From Thermosynechococcus sp. CL-1 (GTDB taxonomy: Bacteria; Cyanobacteriota; Cyanobacteriia; Thermosynechococcales; Thermosynechococcaceae), in the NCBI RefSeq assembly GCF_008386235.1, contig NZ_CP040671.1, forward strand, positions 1,614,001 through 1,678,000: a DNA stretch of 64,000 bases, in the 5' to 3' direction. Below are positions 3 to 59,760 of this stretch, one piece after another (the stretch's first letter is position 1; every line of letters starts with the position of its first letter). The position numbers and the translations under genes are program-made. The notes beneath the pieces were generated by a model. It made no database searches, was not told the origin of the DNA, and worked only from the letters and a program-made list of their open reading frames with translations.

Positions 3-137
3 AGTCTAAGTCAATATTCCGAGTCAGAGAACTTAGCGTCGGGAAATTTGGCTGGGAATGATTTAAGTTATATTGTAAAGCCGATTTTATTGCCTGATCT
101 CTCATCAAATCAAATGAATTTACCAGTGCTCATCTAA
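3..137 (+). CDS. Possible 3' end of a plus-strand gene cut by the window edge
   Basis: An open frame of 44 codons enters from the left edge and ends at a TAA at 135-137. It contains no recognisable motif. If real, it converges on the helicase gene and overlaps its stop codon by a few bases, as several convergent pairs do elsewhere in this window. The stretch is AT-rich and the frame is short, so it could be chance. Sequence to the left would decide. Confidence 0.22.
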   Translation, partial: SLSQYSESENLASGNLAGNDLSYIVKPILLPDLSSNQMNLPVLI

Positions 138-3100
138 ACATAATCTCCGGGTCGTCGGAGGGCAATCAAAGGATTAGCATGTTCAATCTGATAGTTAGGG
201 TATCGTGTTCTAGCATCTGCCACAGCTTCTATCCATTCAGTATGCCGATCGTTCCACAAGGGATGGCGGATAATTCGAATCACACTGTTGTTTCTCTGAT
301 TTTTCACAAAACCAGTTAGATTAGCAAACTGAGTAGGACTGCCATAACCAAGGTGTTGAAAAGTTGTAGAAATTGCACCAGTTACTAAACTTTGCCAAGG
401 ATTAGGGAAATTCCCCCAATTAGAGGCTAAGTCTATAGTAACGGATGAGTCTCTGACCAATCGAGCCATATCCAAAGCCAATCGCCAGTCTAGGAGACCA
501 TGATAGGCAAGATTTCGATAATCCCGCAAACAGTCATTACAAGAAGTATCACAGTTTCTGCCGTGACCTTGAGAATTCAGCCAACGGTAGGCTATTGACA
601 GAGAATTATTAGGGTCTGATTGAGCCATGACTTTCTCAAATTGATGAGGATTGGCTAAAAAATTGCAGTAGCCTGCACCATTCTCCAAACTGTCACAGAG
701 AAACGCTTGGCCTACAACTTTGCCATCTTGAGCTAATGTACGAAATCCTGCTTGCAATTCCAGCGGATCGACATCTAAATAAGCAGAGGCGGCAATCCTG
801 AGCCAAAAAGCGAAGGAATACCATGCCGCTCTCCCTTCTACCGTCATTGGATCAGCAAATACCCCCTCACTCCACCGGGCAATGTTTACCAAGAGAATGT
901 CAGTTCTGCGCCGTGAAAGAAGTGCAATTTTATATTTCTGCCCTGAACCAGTAACACGATCGCTCCCTTCAATGGCATCGGCAACTACATAAGCTCCTGA
1001 TTTGGGGTTACCGAATACTGAGGCATTTTGAAAATCGAACCCTCCCCTCCCGCCATTATCATTGATTGAAATAATGCGATCGCTTACAGAAGAAACATTA
1101 GCGTTCAAAACTAAGATTGGATTACCAGCAGGAGAATTGATACTAACAGTGGGGCGGGTCGAGCGAGGTTGCCACTCAAACTGCCCATCATAATCCTCTG
1201 GTTTCAAATTCGTAAAAAAACCTTTTGGTTCTCTAGCATCCAAAGATCGTAAACTTTGTTGATGGCACACAGGGCATTCAAAAAGTTGATCTATTTTACT
1301 GCCAGTAATAGATTGATCAGGTTGATAGGGATAAACTACGGCTTGACAATTACTGCATAACCCCAGTGCTTGGTTAGGCTCAGATAAAGGGGGCGAAAAA
1401 CTAGGCTTAACATCAACGTAGTTACCATTGTTTTGAGGTACTAACTCCACAACTCCACAGGCGGTATGCACTGCTCTATCTCTTACAGTCTGAGAACCTG
1501 GCGCAAACTGACCGATCGCTATATCCAAATCACGATCGATGGTTTCTTTATTTGACCATTTGGTGTAGAGAAGCCTTACCCTAGTTGGAAAGCCAAACAT
1601 AGGCAAGTATCCTGCATTTGCTAATCGCTCGCTCAAATTATTTTGAGTGTAGGTAGCATCTGCCACAATACGATCAATTTCAGGAATAAGGTCATTACGA
1701 AGATAAGTCAGAAATTGAGAGTCTTCTGTGCTTAAATCAACTTGGATTTTTAATGCCTTTAAAATAGATAGAATTTTTGACTCATTAGAATTATCCTGCA
1801 ACCAAGCAATAATTTGAGGTTTGTATTTATGCCAGTCTTCAACTTTGCCAAACTCACCATGCACGCTATCAGTTAGCTCCAAAGAGCTACTAATCTCTTT
1901 TTCTTTAAATGACTGTCGTAAAACTTCCTTGATCAACACTCGCCTAAAAATCTCCTCACTACGCATATCCACATAGGGTGGGGGAGGTGGATCACCCGTA
2001 ATGCTCTCTGGACGCTGGAAATAAAAATCGTCATGACTTCTACCCCTACAGAAAGTAACCGCTAGAGAAACTCCTGCACTACGCCGTCCTGCCCGTCCTA
2101 CCCGTTGCTGATAGTTGAATCTGCGGGGGGGCATATTAGACATCATCACCGCCAATAACGCTCCAATATCAACACCAGCCTCCATTGTGGTCGTTACGCT
2201 TAAAAGATCAATGCCTTGAACCTTGGGAATTTCTTGACTGATGAATACATCTTGAAACCAGCGCTGGCGTTTTGGTCGCTCATCCTTATCCGTTTGTCCT
2301 GTGAGTTCTGCCGCATTCATCCGAAAAGGATTCCCCGACTGCTCCGAAAGATAAGTGTAGTAATCAAAATCCGATCTGCTTTGGCTAGGTTCAAGCCTTA
2401 CTATTGGCGCATTTTTATTTTTGGAAGTATTGCATTCAGGACAAATTCCACCCGCAGGATGAAGATAAAAAGCATTGCATTGGGGACAGCGATAACCGGG
2501 GCGAGTGCCATCACTATTCAATTGTGTAGGAGGAGGAGGTACAAGATAAAGTCTGTCTGGATCGAGAACAAGACTCTCACTACTAGCTATGCCTGCATTA
2601 GAGCCAGCAAGCTGTTTTAGAACATCAGCGGAAGAAACATTAGCGATACAGTTGCAATATCTTTCAGAATAGCCGGGTAAGTTTTGATTAGTCCCTGGAT
2701 GGAAATAACTGGAGTATCTATGAAGTCGGCGGATACCTAATTGGCGAATGACAGCATCCACGACTTGAACCAAAACATCAGAGGCATTCCCGACAGGTGA
2801 ATAGCTAACCCACCCTTGTCCAATATTCTCAAGTACCCTAGCTGAATGAATGAATATAGCGTACATCATCTCATCAGCTAATTTTGCTTCTAGGCGATCA
2901 CAATGATTAGTCTGTTCAGGAGTAATAGGATATACTTGAACCACTGGTTTGCCCCAGTCATCTGGCCAGTCATAGCACTCAAACCAAGGATGCCATTCTT
3001 TTCCAGCGCCCTGACCTACTGAGTAGTTTAGAGCACTGAGATCAGTCCCCCCTGGACAAATTCCATACTGCAATAAAGAGTCTCTTAATTTGCGCCTTAA

Positions 3101-5878
3101 ATCCAAGAGGGGGACACGATTTGGATAATCTCGGAGCATTCTTAGCCATTCACTTCTTGCCGATTCGTTGGCAGAAGGAAGATTCCTAATCCAAGAAAGT
3201 GCCTCTGTTGTGAGAGTAGGATAGGCATTAGCAAAGCGTTTGTACCGCTCCATGTCATCTGATGAATTAGGTAGATTCAGATCATTTCTCAGCCTAGGAT
3301 TCAAATCTTCTATTCTGTCAAGAATATCTTGGTTCGTGCAGGTTTGTTTCACAAATGATAATAAATCTCCCCAATAATCCTTAAAGGATTGAATTAGTAG
3401 TAATCGCACCATATCTCGATAGTGATCTCGCTCCATCCCCGCCGCCAGTTTTGCCGCATCTTGACGACTATCAGAAAAAATCACCAATTTACGAGGAGAA
3501 CGAATACTTTGAGGGGCAGGTGCAGGCATTTCTCTCAACAAGCCGCCTGCAATCACCTGACAAGCCTTCTGAAAACCTGTGCGATGGGTATGCAGTGGAG
3601 TTGGAAATATTTTTCTTCTGCTGTAGTCTGCATCACATCGGGGACACTTACTCGGAAAAGCGGAAGCTTCATCTGAGCCACTACCCATCACTTGATAAAG
3701 CCAACCTGGTACCTGATTTTTCCTTGGCGGTGTATTCGACTGATCAAGCATTCCAGTTACATGATCTAGTTTTGCTTTAGTCCATTTACACTTAATTCCA
3801 TTGTGAGTCCATTGCTCATCTTGAGGTTGAGTTTCCCAAGGATTGCGATCATTAGGTAGGGGCCAAAAAATGCGATAGTTGCCATACTTTTGACTTAATA
3901 TAACCGCATCTGGAATTCCTTCCAAGTCAGGTTGATCGGGAGTGAGAATTTCCACAGTAGTATTTCCTACCTTTCTTGTAGCTTTGTATCCGCCCACTAG
4001 GACTTCGCCACAGACTTCACAAACAATTAAATCTAAGACACGAGAACCGCAGGAGCAAGATAAACTATGGTTGGCATGAATTGCTCCTATAGTTGGTCTA
4101 CTTGGTTTTGGCTGACTATTTCGTAACTCTTGATCAACGGCTGGATCGGTACAATTGGGATTAGTACAAGCCCAAAGATTTTGCAAGTTATGGAAAAATA
4201 AATGACCTCTCACTGGTTGGGGCGATCGGCCGTTAGCCAAGGTACTCATTCCCAATGCCATTAAAAATCCTCGCATAGCATCAGAAGTAAGCTGTCCTAG
4301 TTCTCTAGCATTGGGAAAAAGCTGATCATCTAAATCTCTTACATCAGTAGCACGAACACTACCATTGACGGCTCTACAAGCATCTCTGATAGCATCTGCC
4401 GCTTCTATATTTTCTAGAGCTTCACCCAGTTGTCTGCGTGGGTCAGAGTCACTACTGAAAGTTCCTAAATTTTCTGCCAAAGTAGTTATGTATGGCAGTG
4501 ATGATTCAATATCAGGTGGTTGCATGGGACGAAATGGATCGGGCTGAACTGAGCGAGCAAACTGAGCAAAAACATCGCTATATTGATTGATATTTAACCG
4601 TGCTCCTTCTCTAGGTGGAGTTTGCTCCCCAGTAATCAAACTAAAGTCCCCCCGACCAAAAAACTGCCGCAGAAAGTCGTTTCCCTCTTGTCCTGCTTCT
4701 AAACTAGCTGTGGTCGTTAAGATTCTCAGTTGGGGTGAATCAGCAGTTAAACCGAGGCGATAGTATAACAGGCGAAGGATGTAGGCAACTTCTGTACCCG
4801 CTGTACCCCGATAGGCATGCAGCTCATCAATAATTAAGTAGAATTTATTTTCTGGATTACTTTCTAACCATCTCTTTGTAGCATCAAATATATTGTTTTC
4901 GATACTTCGCATCATCATGATATTCAGCATTGAATAGTTGGTGATCAAAATATCAGGGGGATGGTCTTGCATATCCCAGCGCGATCGCATTTCACCACCA
5001 TCTAATCTTGGAAAGTAGAAGCGTAAATCTGGCATGTCATTAAGCAGTGATGGATCACTTTCAATACCACTTTGAAGATTTTGATATTCCTGTTCCATAG
5101 TTCGCATGATAGTTCTTAATTCATTCAACTTGACTGAATTGGTTACCTGCTCATTTCTACGGTTTAGCCTAGTTTTTGTTCCAGGTACAGGGGTAAGCCC
5201 TGTGTAGCGTCCAAAGGTAATGCGGTTTCCTGCTCTAGTACGATCGAGCCATTCATGCACAGTAGGACTATCTAAAACTTTGCGTAATCGGCGTAATTGG
5301 TCTTCTACCAAAGCATTCAAGGGATAGAGAATCAAGGCGCGTACAGCCGCAGGACGAGTTTCATGGCTCCTTTGAGCAACCCAATCACCACGAGGATTAT
5401 CAGTTTCATCCCACCAGCGTTGATTTGCAGGTTTAGCATTAGGTGCTGTCCAGCTTTGAGATTCTTTGGCTAACTCAGCTAAAAGTGGCAAGAGAAAGCA
5501 CTCTGTTTTACCCGATCCTGTTCCCGTTGTAACCACAATATCTCTTTGATCAACGATCACCTCTCGTAAACTTTGCCATTGATGCTGATAAAGCTGAATT
5601 CCATCATCAAAGAGAGTTTGTCCAAGTTGGTCTAAGTCTTGATATTCTCTTGGTAAATTTCTTGCAGCCTCAGACAAGCTCATGCCTGATGGGGGATAAA
5701 TTGGTAATGGCTCAACTAGGGGTGGAATACTCAGGACAGGATTATGGGGATCACGAAGAAATTGCAAGCGGCGATCGCGTTCTTTGCCTAGGGCAGGATA
5801 CCGCAAGGGAAATGCACTCTTGATGTAAAGTTGATAAATGCGATCAAGTCTTTGATATGTGCCAAGTAAGTCATGCAT
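134..5878 (-). CDS. Large DEAD/DEAH-type helicase with C-terminal DUF1998/MZB region (Druantia DruE-like)
   Basis: A 1,914-residue superfamily 2 helicase, predicted to be cytoplasmic and to act on nucleic acid. Visible landmarks are a Q-type region near residues 95-105, Walker A TGTGSGKT at about 118-125, a DELH box at about 351-354, a TTTAS motif III, a motif V region (TTTMEAGVDIG), and motif VI QRVGRAGR near 1,258. Four or five CxxC zinc-ribbon pairs are spread through the middle and C-terminal half. The last quarter has the GAGYC and CDTSCNDCLRDY signatures of DUF1998/MZB helicases. It starts two bases after the upstream stop, so it is the third gene of an operon. Proteins of this size and layout include DruE of Druantia defence systems, while MrfA-type repair helicases share the C-terminus but are much shorter. 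The helicase call is secure; a defence role is inferred. Confidence 0.88.
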   Translation of the reverse strand: MHDLLGTYQRLDRIYQLYIKSAFPLRYPALGKERDRRLQFLRDPHNPVLSIPPLVEPLPIYPPSGMSLSEAARNLPREYQDLDQLGQTLFDDGIQLYQHQWQSLREVIVDQRDIVVTTGTGSGKTECFLLPLLAELAKESQSWTAPNAKPANQRWWDETDNPRGDWVAQRSHETRPAAVRALILYPLNALVEDQLRRLRKVLDSPTVHEWLDRTRAGNRITFGRYTGLTPVPGTKTRLNRRNEQVTNSVKLNELRTIMRTMEQEYQNLQSGIESDPSLLNDMPDLRFYFPRLDGGEMRSRWDMQDHPPDILITNYSMLNIMMMRSIENNIFDATKRWLESNPENKFYLIIDELHAYRGTAGTEVAYILRLLYYRLGLTADSPQLRILTTTASLEAGQEGNDFLRQFFGRGDFSLITGEQTPPREGARLNINQYSDVFAQFARSVQPDPFRPMQPPDIESSLPYITTLAENLGTFSSDSDPRRQLGEALENIEAADAIRDACRAVNGSVRATDVRDLDDQLFPNARELGQLTSDAMRGFLMALGMSTLANGRSPQPVRGHLFFHNLQNLWACTNPNCTDPAVDQELRNSQPKPSRPTIGAIHANHSLSCSCGSRVLDLIVCEVCGEVLVGGYKATRKVGNTTVEILTPDQPDLEGIPDAVILSQKYGNYRIFWPLPNDRNPWETQPQDEQWTHNGIKCKWTKAKLDHVTGMLDQSNTPPRKNQVPGWLYQVMGSGSDEASAFPSKCPRCDADYSRRKIFPTPLHTHRTGFQKACQVIAGGLLREMPAPAPQSIRSPRKLVIFSDSRQDAAKLAAGMERDHYRDMVRLLLIQSFKDYWGDLLSFVKQTCTNQDILDRIEDLNPRLRNDLNLPNSSDDMERYKRFANAYPTLTTEALSWIRNLPSANESARSEWLRMLRDYPNRVPLLDLRRKLRDSLLQYGICPGGTDLSALNYSVGQGAGKEWHPWFECYDWPDDWGKPVVQVYPITPEQTNHCDRLEAKLADEMMYAIFIHSARVLENIGQGWVSYSPVGNASDVLVQVVDAVIRQLGIRRLHRYSSYFHPGTNQNLPGYSERYCNCIANVSSADVLKQLAGSNAGIASSESLVLDPDRLYLVPPPPTQLNSDGTRPGYRCPQCNAFYLHPAGGICPECNTSKNKNAPIVRLEPSQSRSDFDYYTYLSEQSGNPFRMNAAELTGQTDKDERPKRQRWFQDVFISQEIPKVQGIDLLSVTTTMEAGVDIGALLAVMMSNMPPRRFNYQQRVGRAGRRSAGVSLAVTFCRGRSHDDFYFQRPESITGDPPPPPYVDMRSEEIFRRVLIKEVLRQSFKEKEISSSLELTDSVHGEFGKVEDWHKYKPQIIAWLQDNSNESKILSILKALKIQVDLSTEDSQFLTYLRNDLIPEIDRIVADATYTQNNLSERLANAGYLPMFGFPTRVRLLYTKWSNKETIDRDLDIAIGQFAPGSQTVRDRAVHTACGVVELVPQNNGNYVDVKPSFSPPLSEPNQALGLCSNCQAVVYPYQPDQSITGSKIDQLFECPVCHQQSLRSLDAREPKGFFTNLKPEDYDGQFEWQPRSTRPTVSINSPAGNPILVLNANVSSVSDRIISINDNGGRGGFDFQNASVFGNPKSGAYVVADAIEGSDRVTGSGQKYKIALLSRRRTDILLVNIARWSEGVFADPMTVEGRAAWYSFAFWLRIAASAYLDVDPLELQAGFRTLAQDGKVVGQAFLCDSLENGAGYCNFLANPHQFEKVMAQSDPNNSLSIAYRWLNSQGHGRNCDTSCNDCLRDYRNLAYHGLLDWRLALDMARLVRDSSVTIDLASNWGNFPNPWQSLVTGAISTTFQHLGYGSPTQFANLTGFVKNQRNNSVIRIIRHPLWNDRHTEWIEAVADARTRYPNYQIEHANPLIALRRPGDYV

Positions 5879-5880
5879 AA

Positions 5881-7248
5881 CTACTGCTCAGTTAGTGTAA
5901 TCTTGAGAGCTTCTGAAATTTCTCTAGCCAGCCGTGAACTAATTCTATTATAAATCAAGAAGCCATCTCGGTAGGTAGGTAACATGCCAGATGCCATAAC
6001 TAAATGAGATTCATAAATCTCTGGCAACCTTTGAGCCATAGGAATTGCCAAAGTTTTTTCTTGGCGATCGTAGTAAAACTCAACATTCTGCCCAAGAGAT
6101 AGAATTGCCAAAAATCTTAATCCATACCAATCTCCTTGTAACCACTGATCTCTGTTTTGATCGTAGAAAAAACTGTACCTAAGCTGTGAAGTAGAGTCCT
6201 TTGCCAAAAACTGATAAAACCCAGTTTGATTTTGAAAAGTACAATCAACAAAGTCTGTTCCATCAAATCTCTTCAGATCAAAATTAAAAGTGAGGATACT
6301 GTCAATTCTACTCAAACTATTCTGCCAATCATTAAGGCTGAGAATACTTGGAGGTTGAGTAAATTTAATAGAATATCCATAATTTTGCATCCTTTGAGCT
6401 AAAATTTCATCCGTAATTTGACTGGACAGTATCAGCTTAATTCTGCGAGGTGCTTCCCCTCTTGGCTGATGTCTTTCCTCTAGTGATCCAAATTCTCTAA
6501 GCCTCTGTAAAAAGCGATGGCTACGCTGACCATGAAGTAAAAAAGTCTGATCGCTAGGTTCAGAATCAGTACCCACATGTACTAAAGAGGGCGGATTAAC
6601 TTGCCATTTAGAGCCATTATCAGAGGTAATTAAATGATTCAGTAGTTTTAGCCGCCTTAAAATGCGCTTTGGCTCAGGGAGATCAAGAATTTCACAGGTT
6701 TTCTTAAAGGATTCCCATGTGCCGCTTCCTGAAGCAGATAGCCAATAAAGCAGATGTTCATGCTTAGTTGAGAATTGTCTAATTTGCTCATCGCTGAGGT
6801 TTTGAGTGTTTGTACTATCAACCAAGTCTAAAGGACTCTCACGAATAATTTTTTGTTGCGATCGGTATGGAATAGGATTTGTGTAATCTTGGACATCATG
6901 TGCTGCCCCAACCATTGGTTTAATATCGTCAATAGTAAATTGGTTGCGTTTCTTGTCAACAGGAAAATTAAAAAAAATTTCCTTTAAGTCTTTAATAAAA
7001 CTATCTACTTCAGATGGAATATCCCCCATTTTTATGCTCTCAATGGCAACAAAAAAGTAATATTCCCCTTTTGGTTTTTTTTCGATTCTTAATAATGGTA
7101 TGTACTGTACAAGATTTCTAGACTGAACTGACCTAGATATAACTTCGATTAGCTGTTCGGGTTTTAATTTATTTGTCCTTTGCTTAAATCCCATATACCA
7201 TCTCACTAATCTTTGTCTACTTATTCTCTCTTGTCTGGATTGGGTCAT
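5881..7248 (-). CDS. Unrecognised 455-residue protein, middle gene of the helicase operon
   Basis: I do not recognise this family. The protein is soluble, charged, and has no signal peptide or membrane segment. The N-terminus is strongly basic (RQERISRQRLVRWYMGFKQR), which would suit nucleic-acid or membrane-surface contact. The middle has a helical winged-helix-like stretch around residues 160-215, with a short GSGTW segment. The ATG is well supported by an AAGGAG Shine-Dalgarno at 7255-7260, six bases upstream. It sits 17 bases after the 595-residue gene and two bases before the helicase, so the three are surely co-transcribed. By position it would correspond to an accessory subunit of a Druantia-like set, but no residue-level evidence supports that. 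Confidence 0.72.
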   Translation of the reverse strand: MTQSRQERISRQRLVRWYMGFKQRTNKLKPEQLIEVISRSVQSRNLVQYIPLLRIEKKPKGEYYFFVAIESIKMGDIPSEVDSFIKDLKEIFFNFPVDKKRNQFTIDDIKPMVGAAHDVQDYTNPIPYRSQQKIIRESPLDLVDSTNTQNLSDEQIRQFSTKHEHLLYWLSASGSGTWESFKKTCEILDLPEPKRILRRLKLLNHLITSDNGSKWQVNPPSLVHVGTDSEPSDQTFLLHGQRSHRFLQRLREFGSLEERHQPRGEAPRRIKLILSSQITDEILAQRMQNYGYSIKFTQPPSILSLNDWQNSLSRIDSILTFNFDLKRFDGTDFVDCTFQNQTGFYQFLAKDSTSQLRYSFFYDQNRDQWLQGDWYGLRFLAILSLGQNVEFYYDRQEKTLAIPMAQRLPEIYESHLVMASGMLPTYRDGFLIYNRISSRLAREISEALKITLTEQ

Positions 7249-7265
7249 GACTAACTCCTTGCTGA

Positions 7266-9053
7266 TTAAGCACTAAAACTTGTAAAATCAATTTCATCCC
7301 ATGTTACAACTTTTATTAGTCCCTGAGCAGATTGCCCTGAACAGGTGGCACTAACTATAAAACTACCTTGAGTCAAATTGGGAATTGAATGCCGTTGATT
7401 AGTTGAAAAAGACTGATCAGAGTAAACCGTTTCGTTGGTAGTAATGTTGGTAATCTCTACCGCAACGGTTGGATGAAATGCAAATACTGTTACCTGTGGG
7501 AGATGATCACTGATCCATGTATTATTCTTCTTGGGTACTCTTAACCCTCCTGAAAAACTAATAGATAGCGATGTTTTCGGTTGTAGTTCATTTTTCAATT
7601 CTGCTGATTGAATAAATACTGCATCCCATGCTTTAGAAAGGACTTGACACTGATAAACCTCATACCAATCTGAGTTATCACCAAAAACTAGATATTTTGT
7701 ATCACGATCGCCTTCCCATTGAATTAGGTTTTCATCTCTCAATCTTTGTAAATCTGTAAATAATGATTCCCTAAAAAGGATAATAAACTGCTCTCCCAAT
7801 TTTGGACTACTCCAGCTTGCATATACCCCTGATTCAGGGTTATCTGGATCGGGTACTAATATCCAAAAGTCTCGCTTGGGTAAAATTAGCTTCTCAACTT
7901 GGGTATTGGGATTTATCTGATATGTTTTGCCTTGGGATATTTCTTGTCTCAACAAAGGTTGTCCGATCGGTAAATACCAGCCCGCTCTATCTTCTCGTAA
8001 ATCCCATCGTTCTCCATTGACTTCTACTGTTAATGAACCAAGCGATCGCCCTTTTTGTTGCTTTGGATACAGGTAGTACTCAATATTTCCCAGAAAATCT
8101 TCAGTGCGATATATCCCCGTGTACAACTGGTGACTCCATTCTCTATGCTTTGTTCCACCAGTTAAGGTGCTTGGTGATCCTTTCGCCAGCCAATCTTCAT
8201 AAGTTTCATGAATTGCCTGAGCTACTGATTCATAGCGACTACGATCATCTATTAACTTTTTGAGATGTTGAGTAAATGTTGAGTATTCACTAGCCACTTT
8301 CGCAAATAATGTTTGCTCATCCCATCTTGTTTGCCATTGCTTTTTAGTAAAGAGTCTTATTAATCGATCCTTGTCTGTATTGCGAAGTAATGATTGAGAT
8401 ATTGGATAGTTGATGTATTTTCTTTGCTTGCCAGAACCTTCTTTAGCAGTTGGAATGAAGCCCTGCTCAAGCAACCACCTATTCCATGTTTCCCATAACA
8501 CTTTCTCGGGAGCATCTTCATTTTGTTTTATGTGTAATCCCTTTGGCCTGCTGGGTTGCCCATCTTTAGGTAAATTTAATATCTGCCGAAACCTAGAGAA
8601 GTAATTAGTCTCGTCTAACTTACTGTCTTCATCTTCTGCCATTTGGTTTGCCGCCAAGACCATAATTCCTAAAAAAGCAACCCCTTTCGGATAGCCCCAA
8701 TCGTCTAAGCCTGATACAGTCTCTAAGTCTATTCCTTCACCCTTTACTACGACGTCCCTCACAGCTTGGCAGAAATTTGTGACCCATGATTCATGATTGC
8801 AGTCGCGATTGAAACTGTTGCCAATTTTCCCTAAGGTATCATCATCAAGGCTCAGGTAGATTTTTGTACCATATGGCACATTCTGGGTGAAGTAGCTGAT
8901 GATAGACGCATTCCAGTCAGAATAATTGCTCATCCTCGCCGTCACTGAATTTTGATGATATGAGAAGTTTAGCATACGATCAGGATCAGAAGTGTTGAAT
9001 CTTGCAAGAAAAATTAACATCCTAAGTGACCAGTAGCTCTGGCTGCCAATCAA
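7266..9053 (-). CDS. Unrecognised ~580-595-residue protein, first gene of the helicase operon
   Basis: I do not recognise this family. The protein is soluble, with an alpha-helical middle and a C-terminal third rich in short beta strands (from about residue 490), like a beta-sandwich or Ig-like fold. No catalytic motif is obvious. The longest frame begins with TTG at 9053. Nearer ATG codons lie at 9020 (MLIFLARF), 8975 (MLNFSYH) and 8933 (MSNYSDW), and none has a good ribosome-binding site, so the start is uncertain. The 5' end is shared with a decayed copy at 11,351-11,417, which argues that the LIFLARFN stretch is coding. It leads the operon with the 455-residue protein and the helicase. 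Confidence 0.68.
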   Translation of the reverse strand: MIGSQSYWSLRMLIFLARFNTSDPDRMLNFSYHQNSVTARMSNYSDWNASIISYFTQNVPYGTKIYLSLDDDTLGKIGNSFNRDCNHESWVTNFCQAVRDVVVKGEGIDLETVSGLDDWGYPKGVAFLGIMVLAANQMAEDEDSKLDETNYFSRFRQILNLPKDGQPSRPKGLHIKQNEDAPEKVLWETWNRWLLEQGFIPTAKEGSGKQRKYINYPISQSLLRNTDKDRLIRLFTKKQWQTRWDEQTLFAKVASEYSTFTQHLKKLIDDRSRYESVAQAIHETYEDWLAKGSPSTLTGGTKHREWSHQLYTGIYRTEDFLGNIEYYLYPKQQKGRSLGSLTVEVNGERWDLREDRAGWYLPIGQPLLRQEISQGKTYQINPNTQVEKLILPKRDFWILVPDPDNPESGVYASWSSPKLGEQFIILFRESLFTDLQRLRDENLIQWEGDRDTKYLVFGDNSDWYEVYQCQVLSKAWDAVFIQSAELKNELQPKTSLSISFSGGLRVPKKNNTWISDHLPQVTVFAFHPTVAVEITNITTNETVYSDQSFSTNQRHSIPNLTQGSFIVSATCSGQSAQGLIKVVTWDEIDFTSFSA

Positions 9054-9360: not shown

Positions 9361-10224
9361 ATGGAGCGAGAGGAAATTATTGCGCTCATTCAGCGTGAGC
9401 TACCGCAGCTTGTGGCTCAAGATCCCAGCTTGAGAGATTTGATCCTGCGCATGGTCTTGGACGTTTCTCTGCCTCGCCGTGAGGCAGATATCAAGTTTGA
9501 CCGTATCCTCAGCGAACTACAGCGCGATCGCGAGGAACAGTCACGCCGTTGGCAGGAACAAGACCGCAAGTGGCAAGAACAGGTCCGGCGTTGGGAAGAA
9601 CAGGATCGCAGGTGGCAAGAGCAGGCCAAGCGCTGGGAAGAACAGGATCGCAGGTGGCAAGAGCAGGCCAAGCGCTGGGAAGAACAGGACCGCCGCTGGC
9701 AAGAACAGGCCAAGCGTTGGGAAGAACAGGACCGCCGCTGGCAAGAACAGGCCAAGCGTTGGGAAGAACAGGATCGCAGGTGGCATGAGCAACTTGCAGA
9801 GATTCGGCGTCTTGACAAGCGCTTTGACAGTACAATTGGAGCCCTTGGTGCTCGCTGGGGAATTGCTTCAGAAACCAGCTTTCGCAACGCCCTCGCGGGC
9901 ATTTTGACGGAATCCTTTGGGGTTGAGGTTTTGAACTTAACCCTCTACGACCATGAGGGTGAAGTCTTTGGTCGCCCTGATCAGGTGGAGCTAGACTTGA
10001 TTATCAAAAATGGCTTAACCATTGCCTGTGAAATCAAATCTTCTATTGATAAGGCAGGGATGTATATCTTTGACCGTAAGGTGAATTTCTATGCGCGGCA
10101 TCACCAGCGCCAAATTGACCGCAAAATTGTGATTTCGCCAATGGTTGATCCACGCGCACGACCGGTGGCTGAGGCGCTAGGGATTGAACTCTATAGTTAT
10201 GCCGACTCAGTGGAGGGCTTGTAA
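9361..10224 (+). CDS. DUF3782-like PD-(D/E)XK nuclease with a long repetitive coiled coil
   Basis: This 287-residue protein has three parts. Residues 1-55 are helical. Residues 56-150 are a Trp-, Glu-, Gln- and Arg-rich coiled coil built from 14-residue units QDRRWQEQAKRWEE, themselves two imperfect heptads. Residues 160-287 form a PD-(D/E)XK-type domain. In it D212 (ELDLIIK) is followed by E224-x-K226 (IACEIKSS), the expected catalytic spacing, and E171 may be the upstream acidic residue. Proteins of this design are common in cyanobacteria and thermophilic archaea (DUF3782). Their role is unknown, with DNA processing or defence often suggested. The gene is intact despite the repeats and lies next to a dead transposase, in a disturbed region. 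Confidence 0.8.
   Translation: MEREEIIALIQRELPQLVAQDPSLRDLILRMVLDVSLPRREADIKFDRILSELQRDREEQSRRWQEQDRKWQEQVRRWEEQDRRWQEQAKRWEEQDRRWQEQAKRWEEQDRRWQEQAKRWEEQDRRWQEQAKRWEEQDRRWHEQLAEIRRLDKRFDSTIGALGARWGIASETSFRNALAGILTESFGVEVLNLTLYDHEGEVFGRPDQVELDLIIKNGLTIACEIKSSIDKAGMYIFDRKVNFYARHHQRQIDRKIVISPMVDPRARPVAEALGIELYSYADSVEGL
9601..9768 (+). repeat. Four tandem 42-bp repeats inside the DUF3782-like gene
   Basis: Residues 81-136 are four copies of a 14-residue unit, with a fifth partial copy after them and looser heptads before. The DNA copies differ mainly at third positions (GATCGCAGG versus GACCGCCGC), and copies 1-2 and 3-4 form similar pairs. This suggests recent expansion by slippage or unequal exchange. 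Length stays a multiple of 42, so the frame is kept. Confidence 0.9.
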
Positions 10225-10227
10225 GGA

Positions 10228-10986
10228 GACTTTTGTCGCTATACGAAACTCCGTTTGATTCTCGTCAAAAAATTGAACCACGCGATATCTCTCATGATTG
10301 AGCTTCATTCTCATGTTATTCTTGATACGTACAACAAATGAGCACTTCCTCTCACTCAGTCACTCTAAAAATTGCCAGCTCGCAAACCCTCTATCCATGA
10401 TTACAACAGCGTTCTCAGGGATCATTTCTAGAATCTCCTCTTGAAAGCTCAGGTCATGTCTCTCCCCAAAAGAAATCACCGCTTTACCCATGATGTTCTC
10501 TGTTAAATCAAATCCCGTAAGTAACTTCACTTGATGATATTTATAGAACCAAAAGAGTTTACTGGTCAGGGTAATGATGGTTGAATCGATAGGAAACAGC
10601 GTCATGCTTGAAGTACGATGTCTCTTTTGAGCTTGAGACATCAGTTGAGTGTAAATCCCCTCAAATAAGCTGGTTGTCCGAGTTTTGTTGGCTTTGGAAA
10701 ACGTGGACATATCCACTGTAATCCCTGCATGATTCAAGCGATAAAATAAGGCTCTCATACTGGTTAACCCTTGGTCGAGAACGTAGGTCAACCAGATTTT
10801 GAAGAACAATTGAGAGTTCAGCACGGGGTAGTCACAGGGGCTGAGCCGATTGAGAATGGACTTGACAAGAGTTGCAAAAGATGCCATAGTAAATTGATTT
10901 TTTCTTCTTCTTTTAAGGGAAGAATATGACATTTCTTCCCTTTTTTCTAGCCTCTCAAACTATCTTTCAACACTTCTGGCATGAGA
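10228..10986 (-). pseudogene. IS4-family transposase remnant, copy 1
   Basis: A DDE transposase of an IS4-type element, no longer functional. The open part (10360-10932, 190 codons) contains the first catalytic Asp region FPIDSTIITLTSK and the second Asp in VVIMDRGFASWQFLE. It then meets a TGA. The same frame continues past that stop (SERKCSFVVRIKNNM and on to about 10228), showing a nonsense mutation. Coding similarity to copy 2 also extends upstream of the apparent ATG and is broken there by a TAG in place of Gln. The region with the third catalytic acidic residue is missing, cut where the DUF3782 gene ends. A shorter second copy lies at 59,426-59,760. Confidence 0.85.
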
Positions 10987-12253: not shown

Positions 12254-12280
12254 GTAGGGTTACTTTTGGGGAAGTCTCCT

Positions 12281-12934
12281 GTGAGCGGACCAGCGATCGC
12301 CATCATTGACTACGATATGGGCAATCTGCATTCCGTGAGTAAAGCCCTTGATGTCGTGGGGGCAACGCCCTTAGTGAGCGATCGCGCCAGTGACATTTGT
12401 GCTGCGGATGCCGTGGTTCTCCCCGGTGTCGGTGCCTTTGACCCCGCCATGACCCATCTCCACGAGCGGGAACTGGTGCCTGTCATTCAGCGGGTGATTC
12501 AGCAGGGGATGCCCTTTTTGGGGATTTGTCTGGGTCTGCAAGTCTTGTTTGAGTGCAGCGAAGAAGGCAGAGAACCCGGCCTTGGTATTTTTGCGGGGAA
12601 AGTCAAACGCTTTCAGTCTGAACCCGGCCTCACAATCCCCCACATCGGCTGGAACCAACTCACCCTAACGCAACCCGCCTGTCCCCTCTGGCAGAATTTA
12701 CCGCCAACCCCTTGGGTGTATTTTGTCCACTCCTACTTTGTCGCCCCTGATGATCCAGAGCTTGTGGCCGCCACCGTCCGTCATGGTCAGCAAACTGTCA
12801 CAGCCGCGATCGCCCGCAACAATATCTTTGCCTGTCAATTTCACCCCGAAAAGTCGGGCAAGATCGGCCTGCAACTACTGCGCAACTTTGTCACTCTCGT
12901 CAAACACCAGTATAGCCATTTTAATCAAGAATGA
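12281..12934 (+). CDS. hisH: Imidazole glycerol phosphate synthase glutaminase subunit HisH
   Basis: HisH is a class I glutamine amidotransferase. It hydrolyses glutamine and passes ammonia to HisF in histidine and AICAR synthesis. The glutaminase triad is visible: Cys in GICLGLQVLFE, and His and Glu in CQFHPEKSG. The N-terminus IAIIDYDMGNLHSV is typical. I take the GTG at 12281 as the start, because GGGGA lies about eight bases upstream; a TTG at 12266 is possible. The last codons (YSHFNQE) coincide with an IS630 terminal repeat found again at 58,607, so the natural C-terminus was probably replaced by insertion. The catalytic core is complete, so the enzyme should work. Confidence 0.95.
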   Translation: MSGPAIAIIDYDMGNLHSVSKALDVVGATPLVSDRASDICAADAVVLPGVGAFDPAMTHLHERELVPVIQRVIQQGMPFLGICLGLQVLFECSEEGREPGLGIFAGKVKRFQSEPGLTIPHIGWNQLTLTQPACPLWQNLPPTPWVYFVHSYFVAPDDPELVAATVRHGQQTVTAAIARNNIFACQFHPEKSGKIGLQLLRNFVTLVKHQYSHFNQE

Positions 12935-12972
12935 GATATTATCCAGTACAATAATTGTGAATCACCTCATCA
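12911..12972. mobile_element. IS630 end remnant overlapping the hisH 3' end
   Basis: The segment from TATAGCCATT to CACCTCATCA matches 58,609-58,672, the end of the IS630 element, with few differences. On the minus strand it still encodes the transposase C-terminus (DEVIHNYCTG then stop, against DEVIRKYCAG in the other copy). It is the scar of an IS630 copy that inserted at the end of hisH and was then deleted together with part of the DUF2887 gene. Confidence 0.8.
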
Positions 12973-13387
12973 GCACCTCCTCGCGACTTAGTGTGGTGAA
13001 CTTGTACAGGACAGTTGTTATGATTAACTCTATTATGGCTTGCTGCTTCAGTTCTGTTTCTGTCTGACTCCGCTGCGCAAGTAATCGATTGGGATAAATG
13101 ACCACGGCTTGCCCATCAGAGAAGGTCTGGCGATACAGACGCAAATAGAGAAAGATTTCAGCAAAGAAGCGTTCGTAGAAGGTATTATCTCTTTGAAACT
13201 GGACTTCACAAAAATAGACCACTCCTGAGGGATCAGGAGGGACAAAGACACCGTCAATGCGGAAGGCGGTTGGCTTGAGTTCAACGAAGTCGAAGCGGTA
13301 GCCTCTAGGATAGTCAATTCCGAGCAGCTCAAAGAGCGTCTGAGGCAGTTGAGCAAACAGTTGGTAAAAGAGGGAGTCGCGGCGCAT
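12962..13387 (-). pseudogene. Deleted DUF2887-family (Rpn/PD-(D/E)XK) gene
   Basis: This 141-codon frame begins like the cyanobacterial DUF2887 family (MRRDSLFYQLFAQLPQTLFE). It keeps part of the nuclease core, with Asp in FRIDGVFVPP and a Glu in YFCEVQFQRD. Members are normally about 250-290 residues. Here the sequence jumps from IYPNRLLAQRSQTE to a C-terminal-like stretch, ELIITTVLYKFTTLSREEV, indicating an internal deletion. The end then runs into the IS630 remnant. Related proteins have been linked to recombination and transposon-like spread. It is probably inactive, though a short product could still be made. Confidence 0.75.
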
Positions 13388-13417: not shown

Positions 13418-14077
13418 TTAAAGCAGGCCGCGATAGCGAATAAATGTCAGCACTGCCGCCCACGACCCCAAGGCCACTTTTAGGGCAATGAGGATATTCA
13501 GCCAAGGAATCCAGCCACCACTGAGGAGGGTGCCAAACTGACCCGCCGGCAAGGCCACCCCCATCAACAGGCTGGCACCGCAGAGAATGAAAACAATCAC
13601 GGAGATTTTTTCCCATGTGGCGGCATGGAAGCGACGATAGATGCTCTCTAGCCATTCTGGAGCTGAGGTAATGGCCACAAGCCCGATCGCCGTCCCGCCA
13701 GCAACGCCAGCCGCAAATCCACCCCCCGGACTCAGGTGCCCCCGCAAGGCCAACTCAATACACACAAGGGAGCAAATGGTGGCGCCAAATCTTGCCAAAA
13801 CAATCGAGGGCTGATCATTAAAGCGGCTAACGTGGCCAAGGGGTTTTTCATTGCTGAGTAGATACTGTGCCCCCATGATGGCAAGAGTGAATACCACCAC
13901 TTCAAAAATGGTGTCGTACAGGCGATTGCGCAAAATCACAGCCGTAACGGCATTGGGAATGCCACTCTGGTTAACAAGGGTTTCGACAATGGGAAGCGTT
14001 GGTACCGCAGGTAGGGTGGGGATCATCAGCATTTTCACCAGCAGCAGCACTGCCGCAATGCCATAGAGCCAAATCAT
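13418..14077 (-). CDS. mrpB: Mrp-type Na+/H+ antiporter subunit B
   Basis: A 219-residue membrane protein with six or more predicted membrane segments. The MnhB/MrpB signature is the glycine-rich GHLSPGGGFAAGVAGGTAIG after a conserved ELALRGH. The N-terminal part (LRNRLYDTIFEVVVFTLAIMGAQYLL) resembles the segment that precedes MrpB in fused forms. It is the last gene of a seven-gene minus-strand operon and overlaps the upstream DUF4040 gene by four bases. Mrp complexes exchange cytosolic Na+ for protons, and in cyanobacteria support salt and alkali tolerance and carbon supply. Confidence 0.9.
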   Translation of the reverse strand: MIWLYGIAAVLLLVKMLMIPTLPAVPTLPIVETLVNQSGIPNAVTAVILRNRLYDTIFEVVVFTLAIMGAQYLLSNEKPLGHVSRFNDQPSIVLARFGATICSLVCIELALRGHLSPGGGFAAGVAGGTAIGLVAITSAPEWLESIYRRFHAATWEKISVIVFILCGASLLMGVALPAGQFGTLLSGGWIPWLNILIALKVALGSWAAVLTFIRYRGLL

Positions 14078-55792: not shown

Positions 55793-58684
55793 TGCCCAGC
55801 ACCACCATTGACCGCCTGATCATCAACTCGCCCTACGAGGAGCCGCAGCGGCACTGGCGTTACGACCGCGAGACGCGTATTTTCGAATTGGTGGAGGGCC
55901 GCCGCCCGGCGGGGTACGTGGTGGCGACGCCCGGCTCAAAAGCCTTCGATGACCCGGGCATCTTCGTCGAGATTCCGCTGGTCAACCAGATCCGCCCGCG
56001 CGTCAAGGCCTGGCGCGAGGCGGGCTATCCGGGCGTCACCAGCATCACCAAGCGGCTGCTGGAACATTGGACCGACCCCGAAAACTTTGACCGGCGGCGC
56101 TTCTTCTTCTGCCAGCTGGAGGCGGTGGAGACGCTCATCTGGCTGACCGAGGCCGCCCCCGCTGAGCGCACCGGCATCGAAATCCCCGGCGATGGCGGCG
56201 AGTACATCCGCCAATGCTGCAAGATGGCCACCGGTTCGGGCAAGACCATCGTCATGGCCTTGGTCATCGCCTGGCAGGTCCTGAACAAGGTGGCCAACCC
56301 GCAGGATGCCCGTTTCTCCAAAAACGTGCTGGTCATCGCCCCGGGGCTGACGGTCAAAAAGCGTCTGGAAGTGCTTTACCCCGCCGCGGACGGCAATTAC
56401 TACGAAGCCCTCGTCCTTGCTCGAGAAATTGCGCCAAGGCAAAGTGCTGGTGCGCAACTGGCACGCCCTCGCCTGGGAGAGCGAAGAACAGATCAAGAAA
56501 CGCAAGTCTGTGGACAAACGCGGGGTCAAAAGCGACGAGGCCTATACCCGCGAGGTGCTGGGCGAGATGGCCAATGCGCGCAACCTTCTGGTCATCAACG
56601 ACGAGGCTCACCACGCCTAGCGTGTGAACTGGGAGGCGGAAGGAAAGTATTTGCGGCAGCGGGATCTCAAGGATAGCGCCGCGGAGGCCACGGTGTGGAT
56701 CGGTGGGCTGGATCGCCTGCACCGCTCGCGGGGCATCCTCAGGTGCTATGATTTTTCCGCTACTCCCTTCACGCCTTCGGGCAAAAAGAGCAGCGAAGAG
56801 GCGCTCTTCGACTGGATCGTTAGCGACTTCGGCTTGAATGACGCCATCGAGTCTGGCCTAGTCAAGACCCCGCGCGTGGTGGTGCGCGACGATGCTGTCC
56901 CCGACGCTAAAACCTACAAGTCGCACCTTTACCACATCTACAACTACCCGGACGTGAAGAACGACTTAAACTGCAAGGCGCAGCCGGAGGAGCCGCTGCC
57001 CGACCTGGTGCTCAACGCCTACTACCTTTTAGGCTACGATTGGTGCGAGACGTGGAAGGCATGGAAGGCGGCCGGGCTGTCCACGCCGCCGGTGATGATC
57101 ACCGTCTGCAACCGCACCGAGACCGCGGCGCGCGTGAAGCACGCCTTCGATTCGCGGCGCATCCACATCGATGAACTGTGCGACCCAGAGCGCATCCTGC
57201 ATATCGACTCGAAGGTGCTCGATGAGGCGGAAACGAAAGAAGAGTTTTTCGTTTCGAGTGGTCAGTTTGTCGAAGATGAAGAAGGGGTCGAGGCAACGGC
57301 AGAAAACGCAAAACCAGCAACTCAAAACGCAAAACTCACCAAGGCCCAGCAGGCCGAGCGCTTGCGCCAGATGGTGGACACGGTGGGCAAGGTGGGACAG
57401 CCGGGCGAGAGAATCCAAAACGTCATCTCCGTCGGCATGCTCTCCGAGGGCTGGGACGCCAAGACGGTGACGCACATCATGGGACTGCGGGCGTTCACGT
57501 CGCAGCTGCTGTGCGAGCAGGTGGTCGGTCGCGGCTTGCGGCGCACTTCGTACGAAGTCAACCCGGAAACGGGGCTGTTCGAGCCGGAATACGTCAACAT
57601 CTTCGGCGTGCCCTTCACCTTCTTGCCCCACCAAACCTTCTTGCCCCACGAAGGCGGCGAGAACGACCCGCCACCGCCGCCCACGCCCAAGACCGCCGTT
57701 GAGCCAGACCCGACCAAGGCACAGCTCGAGATCCGCTGGCCGAATGTGGTGCGCATCGAGCGCGTCTTTCAACCGACGCTGACCTTGGACTGGTCGAAGG
57801 TGCGACCATTGGAACTGGACGCGGCGCAGACAGCGAAGGTCGCCGAGCTGGCGCCGATCCTCGAAGGCAAGCCAGACGTCACCCGGATCAACCGCATCAA
57901 GTTGGAGCGGCTGGCGGGGAAATTCCGCACCCAACGCATCATTTTCGAGACCGCGCGGGACGTGTTCGACCAGATGAAGCGCACTTGGCGGGGCAGCCGC
58001 GAGGTGTTGTTGGCTCAGCTCGTGCGTATCGTCGAGCAGTTCATCCGCTCCGACTGGATTGTCATCTCGCCGCTTGTTTTCCAGCAGGACGAATTGCGCC
58101 GACGGCTGATCATCACGCTGAACCTGTCGCGGGTGGTGCAGCATATATGGGAGGCGGTGCGGCAGGAAACCACCGGGCGGCTGGAGCCGGTCTTCGACCG
58201 CGATTATCCCATCCGTTCCACAGGCGAGATGCGCACTTGGTACACCGGCAAGCCCTGCGAGCGCACGGAGAAATCCCATATCAACGTCTGCGTCTACGAC
58301 AGCACATGGGAAGCGTCCGACGCCTTCGCGCTCGACAGCAGTGACGCGGTGGCTGCCTGGGTCAAGAATGACCACCTAGGCTTCGAAGTGCTCTACGTTT
58401 ATCGTGGTGTGGTGCGCAAGTATCGGCCTGATTTCCTGGTGCGGCTGAAGAACGGTGATCATCTGATTCTAGAAACAAAGGGTCAGGATACGGAGCAGGA
58501 CAAGGTGAAGCGTCAGTATCTTGCAGAGTGGTGCGAAGCTGTGAACGCGCACGGCGGCTTCGGGCGATGGCGCGCGGCAGTAGCGAAGACGCCCGGTGAG
58601 ATTCAGGATATAGCTATTCCAATAAAGAATGAGACATTATCCAGCACAATACTTGCGAATCACCTCATCAATCGAACTGTTTGA
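55792..58684 (+). pseudogene. Type III restriction enzyme subunit (Res) pseudogene
   Basis: An SF2 ATPase/endonuclease that would cleave DNA together with Mod. Walker A is CCKMATGSGKTIVMALV, the DEAH box is LLVINDEAHHA, motif III is YDFSATPFTPSG, and motif VI-like VVGRGLRRTSYEV is present. The C-terminal nuclease core is PDFLVRLKNGDHLILETKGQ. The gene is broken twice: a small deletion shifts the frame near 56,405, just before LLEKLRQGKVLVRNWH, and TGG became TAG at 56618-56620 right after DEAHHA. The last 25 codons come from the IS630 end at 58,607, so the natural C-terminus is lost. It is surely inactive as a full-length protein. Confidence 0.88.
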
Positions 58685-59374
58685 CCCTGCATACCTCCGC
58701 GCTCGCTTCAACACACTGAAGTCGTGCTCAATCACATTCAAATCAGGAGAGTATTTCGGTAAAAATAACACCGCGTGACCCGCCGCTTTCACCACTGCCT
58801 GCATCCCCCCTTGGGGATGAATCGGTGCATTATCCATCATCAACAACGACGGTCTCTTTAACGCCGGCAAACAGTACTGACTCAACCAACTCACATAACG
58901 CATTCAAATATCCTGAAAACAGCATTGGGGCGATGAAGTCTTTCTGGTATCTATACCGTCCTGCGACTCAACTCTCTCTTTTCTGACGCCTCCCCACTCA
59001 CTCTCCATCAATTCGTTGGCCTCGCGCTGACCACCCATACTCAGACTCCACTCGATCGCTGGGCACGGTCGATTAAACGGTCATCGGGATGGGTAGCAAC
59101 ATCCGCTGCTAAGGCCGCCCAATCCAGTTTCCAAGGACGACGGGGGACAACCGTGGGCGCTAAGTCCTCTCGCTTCAGCCAGCGATGGATGGTGGCGCGA
59201 CTGACCTGAAAGATTTGAGTCGCTTCACTGATTTTGCCACCTTGCTTGATGTAGGAGACAACCCGCTCTCGTCAGTCCAAGCTATAGCTCATGTTCTTGA
59301 GTAACATTCATGACGCTTTGAGTATAGCCTATCCCTCTTGAAAATATCTCACTCCCTTTCGAAATAGCTATATC
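58607..59374 (-). mobile_element. IS630-family element, internally deleted
   Basis: The ends are imperfect inverted repeats of about 35 bases: 58607-58641 (GATATAGCTATTCC...) and 59340-59374 (complement, starting GATATAGCTATTTC). I count about 28 of 35 matches, the outer 12 perfect. On the minus strand the transposase starts near 59,292 with MSYSLD, then a stop, then RERVVSYIKQGGKISEATQI and a helix-turn-helix ending in HRWLKRED. A deletion and frameshifts follow, and the open 88-codon C-terminal part (58637-58903) has LLMMDNAPIHPQGG and YSPDLNVIEHDFSVLKR. The element is dead. It truncates res. Confidence 0.88.
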
Positions 59375-59380
59375 TACCTG

Positions 59381-59477
59381 AACAGCCGTTTCCTATTCGG
59401 GTCAATATCTTGATAGGACGTAACTTTACGCCATAGCCAGACTACTGTTTCTCGTCATCCTTGTGAAAACGGCTGTT
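59381..59477. repeat. 11-bp inverted repeat between the IS630 and IS4 remnants
   Basis: AACAGCCGTTT (59381-59391) is matched by AAACGGCTGTT (59467-59477), framing about 75 bases. It fills the gap between the IS630 end and the point where IS4 similarity begins. It may be the scar of another small element; no coding sequence is seen. Confidence 0.5.
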
Positions 59478-59760
59478 ATTCCTGACTGATTGAGCCGATA
59501 AAACAAGGCTCTCATACTGTTTAAGCTGGCGTCCAAAATGTACGTCAGCCAGATTTTGAAGAGCAGTTGTGAGTTCAGGACGGGATAGTCGCAAGGGCTG
59601 AGGCGCCTGAGAATAGACTTGACAATAGCTCCAAAGGATGCCATAGTAAATTGACTGTTTTTTAATCTTTTAAGGGAAGAATACAATATTTCTTCTCTTT
59701 TTCCTACCTCTTCAAACTGTTGTTCAATACTTCTGCAAAGGAATAAGCCAATCATTTTAC
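59426..59760 (-). pseudogene. IS4-family transposase remnant, copy 2 (N-terminus only)
   Basis: The minus strand encodes IVKSILRRLSPCDYPVLNSQ, then LLFKIWLTYILDASLNSMRA, closely matching copy 1 at 10,360-10,932. Similarity stops after LFYRLNQSGIT near 59,478. All catalytic residues are gone. The true N-terminus extends to about 59,755 (MIGLFLCRSIEQQFEE). Confidence 0.85.

Follow-up and report, generated by a model that had tools for sequence, protein, structure and literature searches.

To describe the locus, we refer to the 64,000-nucleotide stretch of Thermosynechococcus sp. CL-1 DNA that was analysed as the window, to its genome as G000, and to the ten Thermosynechococcus congeners used for comparison as G001 to G010. 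In the window, hisH runs into a short piece of an IS630-family insertion sequence (the scar), beyond which lie a DUF2887 gene remnant and a further gene, both on the opposite strand. The features are as follows.

12266..12934, plus strand: open reading frame of hisH, the glutamine amidotransferase subunit of IGP synthase
12908..12910, plus strand: Gln, the last native HisH codon
12911..12912, plus strand: TA target dinucleotide, positions 1 and 2 of what was probably the hisH stop codon (G001 has TAA), from comparison of congener hisH 3' ends
12911..12934, plus strand: IS-coded tail YSHFNQE and its TGA
12911..12972, no strand assigned: what remains (62 nt) of an IS630-family element at its left end, where the transposase gene has its 3' end; from repeat comparison
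12962..13387, minus strand: DUF2887 (Rpn-like) gene remnant, 141 aa (Pfam DUF2887, 3.1e-42)
13418..14077, minus strand: subunit gene that we take to be of mnhB type, opposite hisH only in G000 and G007
58609..59372, minus strand: IS630 copy with which an earlier note on this DNA had compared the locus, internally deleted and lacking about 190 nt of the 955-bp element

The scar is a direct repeat of positions 58609-58670, with 87% identity over 62 nt, and a reciprocal whole-genome search with the 58.6-kb copy finds the hisH site with an E value of 1.4e-14. When the scar was used as query against the whole 2,647,823-base genome, it returned itself and, at 81-90% identity, eight further left ends of IS630 copies (E 5.9e-17 to 3.5e-10), as well as one opposite IS630 end as a weak match (E 1.14). 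On the minus strand, the scar reads ...DEVIHNYCTG*, which corresponds to the transposase C-terminus (the 58.6-kb copy has ...SIDEVIRKYCAG*); the same C-terminus closes a DDE_3 match in a further IS630 copy of this genome. The earlier note had recognized this match of the hisH end and the following bases to the outer IS630 end, including the transposase C-terminus on the other strand, and had placed it at 12905-12975, only a few bases off the stretch that derives from the IS, 12911-12972.

The scar shares its terminal repeat with longer IS630 copies, the longest of which measures 955 bp (G000:C1:1300342-1301296). The IS630 transposase domains of such copies were found in three translated pieces of the long copy L214: its first transposase frame gives a match to HTH_Tnp_IS630 (1e-34), and its second frame gives two to DDE_3, from separate pieces (1.2e-21 and 6.5e-5, the latter below the Pfam cut-off). 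In its TA target, its terminal repeats TATAGCTATTyC... and its HTH_Tnp_IS630 and DDE_3 parts, the element resembles the cyanobacterial IS630 family (IS630/Tc1/mariner superfamily), whereas at hisH just a 62-nt end of it remains. One internal TGA in the second transposase frame (RES*VAG) recurs in each of the three longest copies of the genome (L212, L213, and L214), and none of them therefore encodes an uninterrupted transposase. A second repeat, 80% identical and probably transposase-derived, is located at 10716-10978, left of the hisH block, and at 59473-59735, right of the 58.6-kb IS630 copy.

The HisH form encoded in the window has 217 residues, and the Pfam GATase match (5.3e-22) covers residues 9-204. 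Solved HisH chains align up to query residue 206 at most; the seven-residue tail is therefore outside the known fold. Both YSHFNQE and its TGA lie inside the 62-nt repeat. The consensus IS left end is TATAGCTATTCCAATAAAGAATGA, derived from 33 ends, those at hisH in G000 and G007 among them, and the scar differs from it at 7 of 62 positions. Within the tail, three of the seven codons (4 of 21 bases) differ from the consensus, and all three changes alter the residue. Gln for Lys and His for Tyr are each found in other IS copies too, so the changes in the tail have not all necessarily arisen at hisH. Over so few sites the comparison is descriptive only, with no test attached, and the tail sequence shows no sign of constraint.

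The 3' ends of hisH were compared among the congeners. In G001, the gene ends with ...GTCAAACATCAG-TAA-GCATCC, and in the window the corresponding sequence is ...GTCAAACACCAG-TAT-AGCCAT. The closest element-free congener, G001, thus offers a plausible empty site, of the kind that the earlier note had proposed to look for, along with an alignment of hisH C-termini: its hisH ends with CAG-TAA, and the element in the window begins at that TA. A TA dinucleotide is the target of IS630 elements. We surveyed the match flanks from nine of the eleven genus genomes, which gave 69 distinct IS630 ends (71 found, two duplicates dropped), and TA was present at 57 of these 69. At hisH, it is present at the element end and in the G001 empty site; the other flank, on which a duplicated TA would show, is lost in all carriers of the scar. 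G001 is the only relative with TAA at the exact insertion position; G009 has CAG there, and the hisH ends of G002, G004, G005, and G006 differ. Since TAA is limited to G001 in this way, a Tyr codon could also have stood at the site before the insertion, a risk illustrated by the Dam gene described below, where joined flanks pointed to a stop but a Tyr codon had been hit. Within the genus, hisH products end in KHQ, KHQQPSHWE, QQPSPWH, or KD, with longer or different endings in G003 and G010.

Two congeners carry the same IS end as the window, and in the three carriers (G000, G007, and G008) the scar has the same TA and the same orientation. In G008, the TA is now TG, and the tail is CSYSNKG, followed by TGA. 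In G007, the codon preceding the element is TAG, compared to CAG in G000, G001, G008, and G009, so the tail is untranslated. In a hisH search of 39 genomes (38 with a match), the alignments listed for G000, G007, and G008, all with the IS end, were the only ones to reach query residue 216 or beyond. Among the matches listed in a separate scan of a genome collection, two distant loci (L099 and L138) also align to 216, and their endings, RERVAA and REKVFA, are not IS-like. Outside the genus, none of the 91 loci (out of 99) that were read by motif had an IS-like hisH ending; the other eight lack the motif and were left unread. Relatives with the same hisH ending but no IS630, which according to the earlier note would speak against its reading, were sought in these comparisons and not found.

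Gene order indicates that the chromosome has been broken at this site. The six element-free congeners G001, G002, G004, G005, G006, and G009 all have a convergent gene X, presumably FHA/PrsW-like, after hisH, and in most of them c3 and c4 come next (with one extra gene between in G006, while the G009 contig stops there). This hisH-X adjacency is absent in all three carriers, where the rest of the element is missing at hisH along with the usual neighbour X. In each carrier, X instead lies next to the same ABC permease gene, which has different neighbours in all six of the element-free congeners. The scar-bearing hisH stands opposite mnhB in G007, opposite mnhB with the DUF2887 fragment between in G000, and opposite tRNA-Trp and rplS in G008. 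The extent of the remnant also varies, covering element positions 2-62 in G000, 2-59 in G007, and 4-44, 471-536, and 567-657 in G008. hisH and X are also apart in the deep-branching G003 and G010, and the polarity of the break therefore rests on the other genomes. As judged from gene order, the scar sits at a breakpoint common to the carriers, with later differences among them.

The cause of the break was sought in homologous recombination between two IS630 copies, which could not be shown. Where X meets the permease gene in the three carriers, the searches gave no IS630 match, also with E values up to 1 admitted. On the DUF2887 side, the scar is met with a one- or two-base overlap, which looks more like illegitimate joining. 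IS630 fragments were also observed next to mnhB in G005 and, in G000, next to the first conserved gene beyond X.

Compared to its paralogues, most of which have open frames of about 280-380 codons, the DUF2887 gene of the window lacks an internal stretch and is cut short at the C-terminus. Residues 1-107 and about 99-139 of the query match the paralogues apart from each other, and the homology stops at position 12971. Where the paralogues run ...EEVL and then RML..., the window gene runs ...EEVL and then MR*. The last two codons (Met-Arg) and the TGA of this truncated frame are supplied by the scar, which means that two convergent reading frames end in it. In G001 and G009, only short 3' DUF2887 fragments (42 and 30 nt, respectively) are found beside mnhB, and G006 has a trace of one by eye. 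Judging by these fragments, DUF2887 sequence probably stood beside mnhB before the scar arose. The earlier note had proposed that an IS was inserted and then deleted along with part of the DUF2887 gene. The hisH ending does come from an IS630 end, and the DUF2887 gene is cut at the scar; deletion, however, is an incomplete account: with X found away from hisH in every carrier, the site is a rearrangement breakpoint. Tandem arrays of DUF2887 (Rpn-like) genes are located at G000:C1:1578277-1581669 and 2101727-2109676; two tandem RPN gene arrays are described for the strain in PMC7005997.

These comparisons point to a single ancestral insertion at the hisH stop codon, followed by rearrangement and drift of the tail, a reading to which we assign a probability of roughly 0.8. 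In an ancestor common to the three carrier species, an IS630-family element would have been inserted at the TA of the stop codon in CAG-TAA. With the stop lost, translation would have run seven codons into the terminal repeat as far as an in-phase TGA, so that HisH gained a tail and lost nothing. Later, most of the element and the old right-hand neighbour of hisH would have been lost from the site through recombination and deletion, and the scar joined to sequence from elsewhere in the chromosome. In the window lineage, the scar would have come to abut a DUF2887 fragment, followed by mnhB, and to terminate the DUF2887 frame as well. The tail would have drifted without visible constraint, and one lineage would have acquired a stop codon before it. 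The remnant is an ordinary IS630 leftover, at a probable former stop codon and a rearrangement breakpoint, largely explained in these terms and with no sign of a new function.

The earlier note had gone further and claimed that the insertion replaced the HisH C-terminus and that the IS end was then domesticated as its substitute. Such a loss has a precedent in the same genome, where a Dam-type methyltransferase gene did lose native residues to an IS630 end. At hisH, however, the alignment with G001 holds through the Gln that precedes the TA; the G001 protein stops there (KHQ*), the TA being part of its TAA, and the solved chains do not extend into the tail. The HisH body was thus probably kept, the stop lost and seven IS-coded residues gained before the TGA; nothing need have been replaced. 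Neither is the tail sequence kept across carriers, as domestication would imply: it is YSHFNQE in G000, CSYSNKG in G008, and untranslated after TAG in G007, where the stop directly precedes it. There are signs that the tail is dispensable. We consider replacement followed by domestication improbable.

Another explanation is that elements of the same IS630 family entered the same hisH TA independently in two or three species. The differing extents of the remnant and the differing downstream junctions would fit this, as would two trees in which the carriers are not resolved as a clade and form a grade, with support of at most 65 at the relevant nodes. The nearest genomes of each carrier are nevertheless the other two (92.3-93.0% identity, compared to 87.7-90.1% to six others, over 13 genes). 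Identity of TA and orientation in three of three carriers argues against independent insertions, and so does the X-permease junction common to all three, which one ancestral event predicts; we regard them as unlikely. The inserted element might also have been a short IS630-derived MITE and not a full IS. A MITE-like form of about 200 bases, in which element positions 1-61 are joined to 816-955, occurs at G002:C1:1198036-1198236 and G004:C1:38320-38522; the window remnant likewise ends at position 61 in the same numbering, and, on inspection by eye, the scar breaks after the same CTCATCA as the left piece of the G004 form. The G008 scar, at the same site, retains inner segments between 471 and 657 that are absent from the MITE, and a single shared insertion must therefore have been longer than it. 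Moreover, the window scar directly meets DUF2887 sequence and not the right part of a MITE. A MITE is hence excluded if there was one shared insertion, and is improbable overall; in G000 and G007 it is possible if the insertion in G008 was a separate one. The single ancestral insertion of a longer element is the reading that we retain.

The IS630 ends of the survey were searched for further stop-codon insertions, requiring an open frame with a start codon at least 40 codons upstream that enters the junction at codon positions 1-2. Seven of the 69 ends have such a frame: hisH in G000, hisH in G008, the Dam gene (with a Tyr codon), L225, L213, L215, and L281. The hisH end of G007 is not included because TAG closes its frame. 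By look, we take L225 to be a truncated nucleotidyltransferase-substrate protein. L213 has lost the outer bases, and L215 and L281 are not gene-like by eye. Among the 69 ends, no further clear stop-codon insertion was found, leaving hisH as the only clear case.

The Dam gene (MethyltransfD12; G000:C1:2045105-2045935; L219, L305) had been suggested as a second such insertion by its joined flanks. This was rejected, as a Tyr codon stands at the TA in seven of seven relatives, followed by native residues or a stop (seven of the ten congeners were read by motif, a shorter motif included, with G002, G004, and G005 not among them). The last residues of the gene were replaced by the IS630 end, giving ...VVTYGHFERE*, compared to ...VVTYCC* or similar in the relatives. 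In a genome so rearranged, 'empty sites' deduced from joined IS flanks can mislead.

Read inward from a junction TA at codon positions 1-2, either end of the element encodes seven residues before it reaches a stop. This holds for 27 of 33 left and 22 of 24 right TA-flanked ends (49 of 57 with exactly seven codons). It is tempting to suppose that this IS630 group has terminal repeats shaped for harmless entry into TAA or TAG stops from either side, and that gene ends would be a safe harbour for the element, but we consider this very improbable.

A search of the open full-text literature for IS insertions at stop codons, judged by title and the start of the abstract, found no description of the hisH case. 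PMC2229807 treats short mobile repeats of bacteria that have become part of genes by in-frame fusion, namely RPE, ERIC-like repeats, and RUP (proposed to be mobilised by IS630-Spn1). The hisH scar resembles them in being mobile-element sequence translated within a conserved protein, and differs from them in being the end of a probably full-size IS that adds seven residues at a stop codon, as an apparently dispensable tail. The case is a clean small example of a TA-targeting IS lengthening a conserved protein through its stop codon. For CL-1 and TA-1, two strains of one species with 97.0% ANI, PMC9403480 counts 16 or more synteny breakpoints and links nearly all of them to transposase genes; compared to these, the hisH scar is probably too short to count as a transposase gene. 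The case also shows that a very short IS scar can flag a rearrangement breakpoint.

Two further observations were made left of hisH. The three large genes at the left edge of the window (134-9053, L301) have homologues between c21 and rplS in G007, and the block may be a mobile island changing place. The open reading frame at 9361-10224 contains in-frame 21-base repeats at 9505-9833 (RRWQEQAKRWEEQD repeats).
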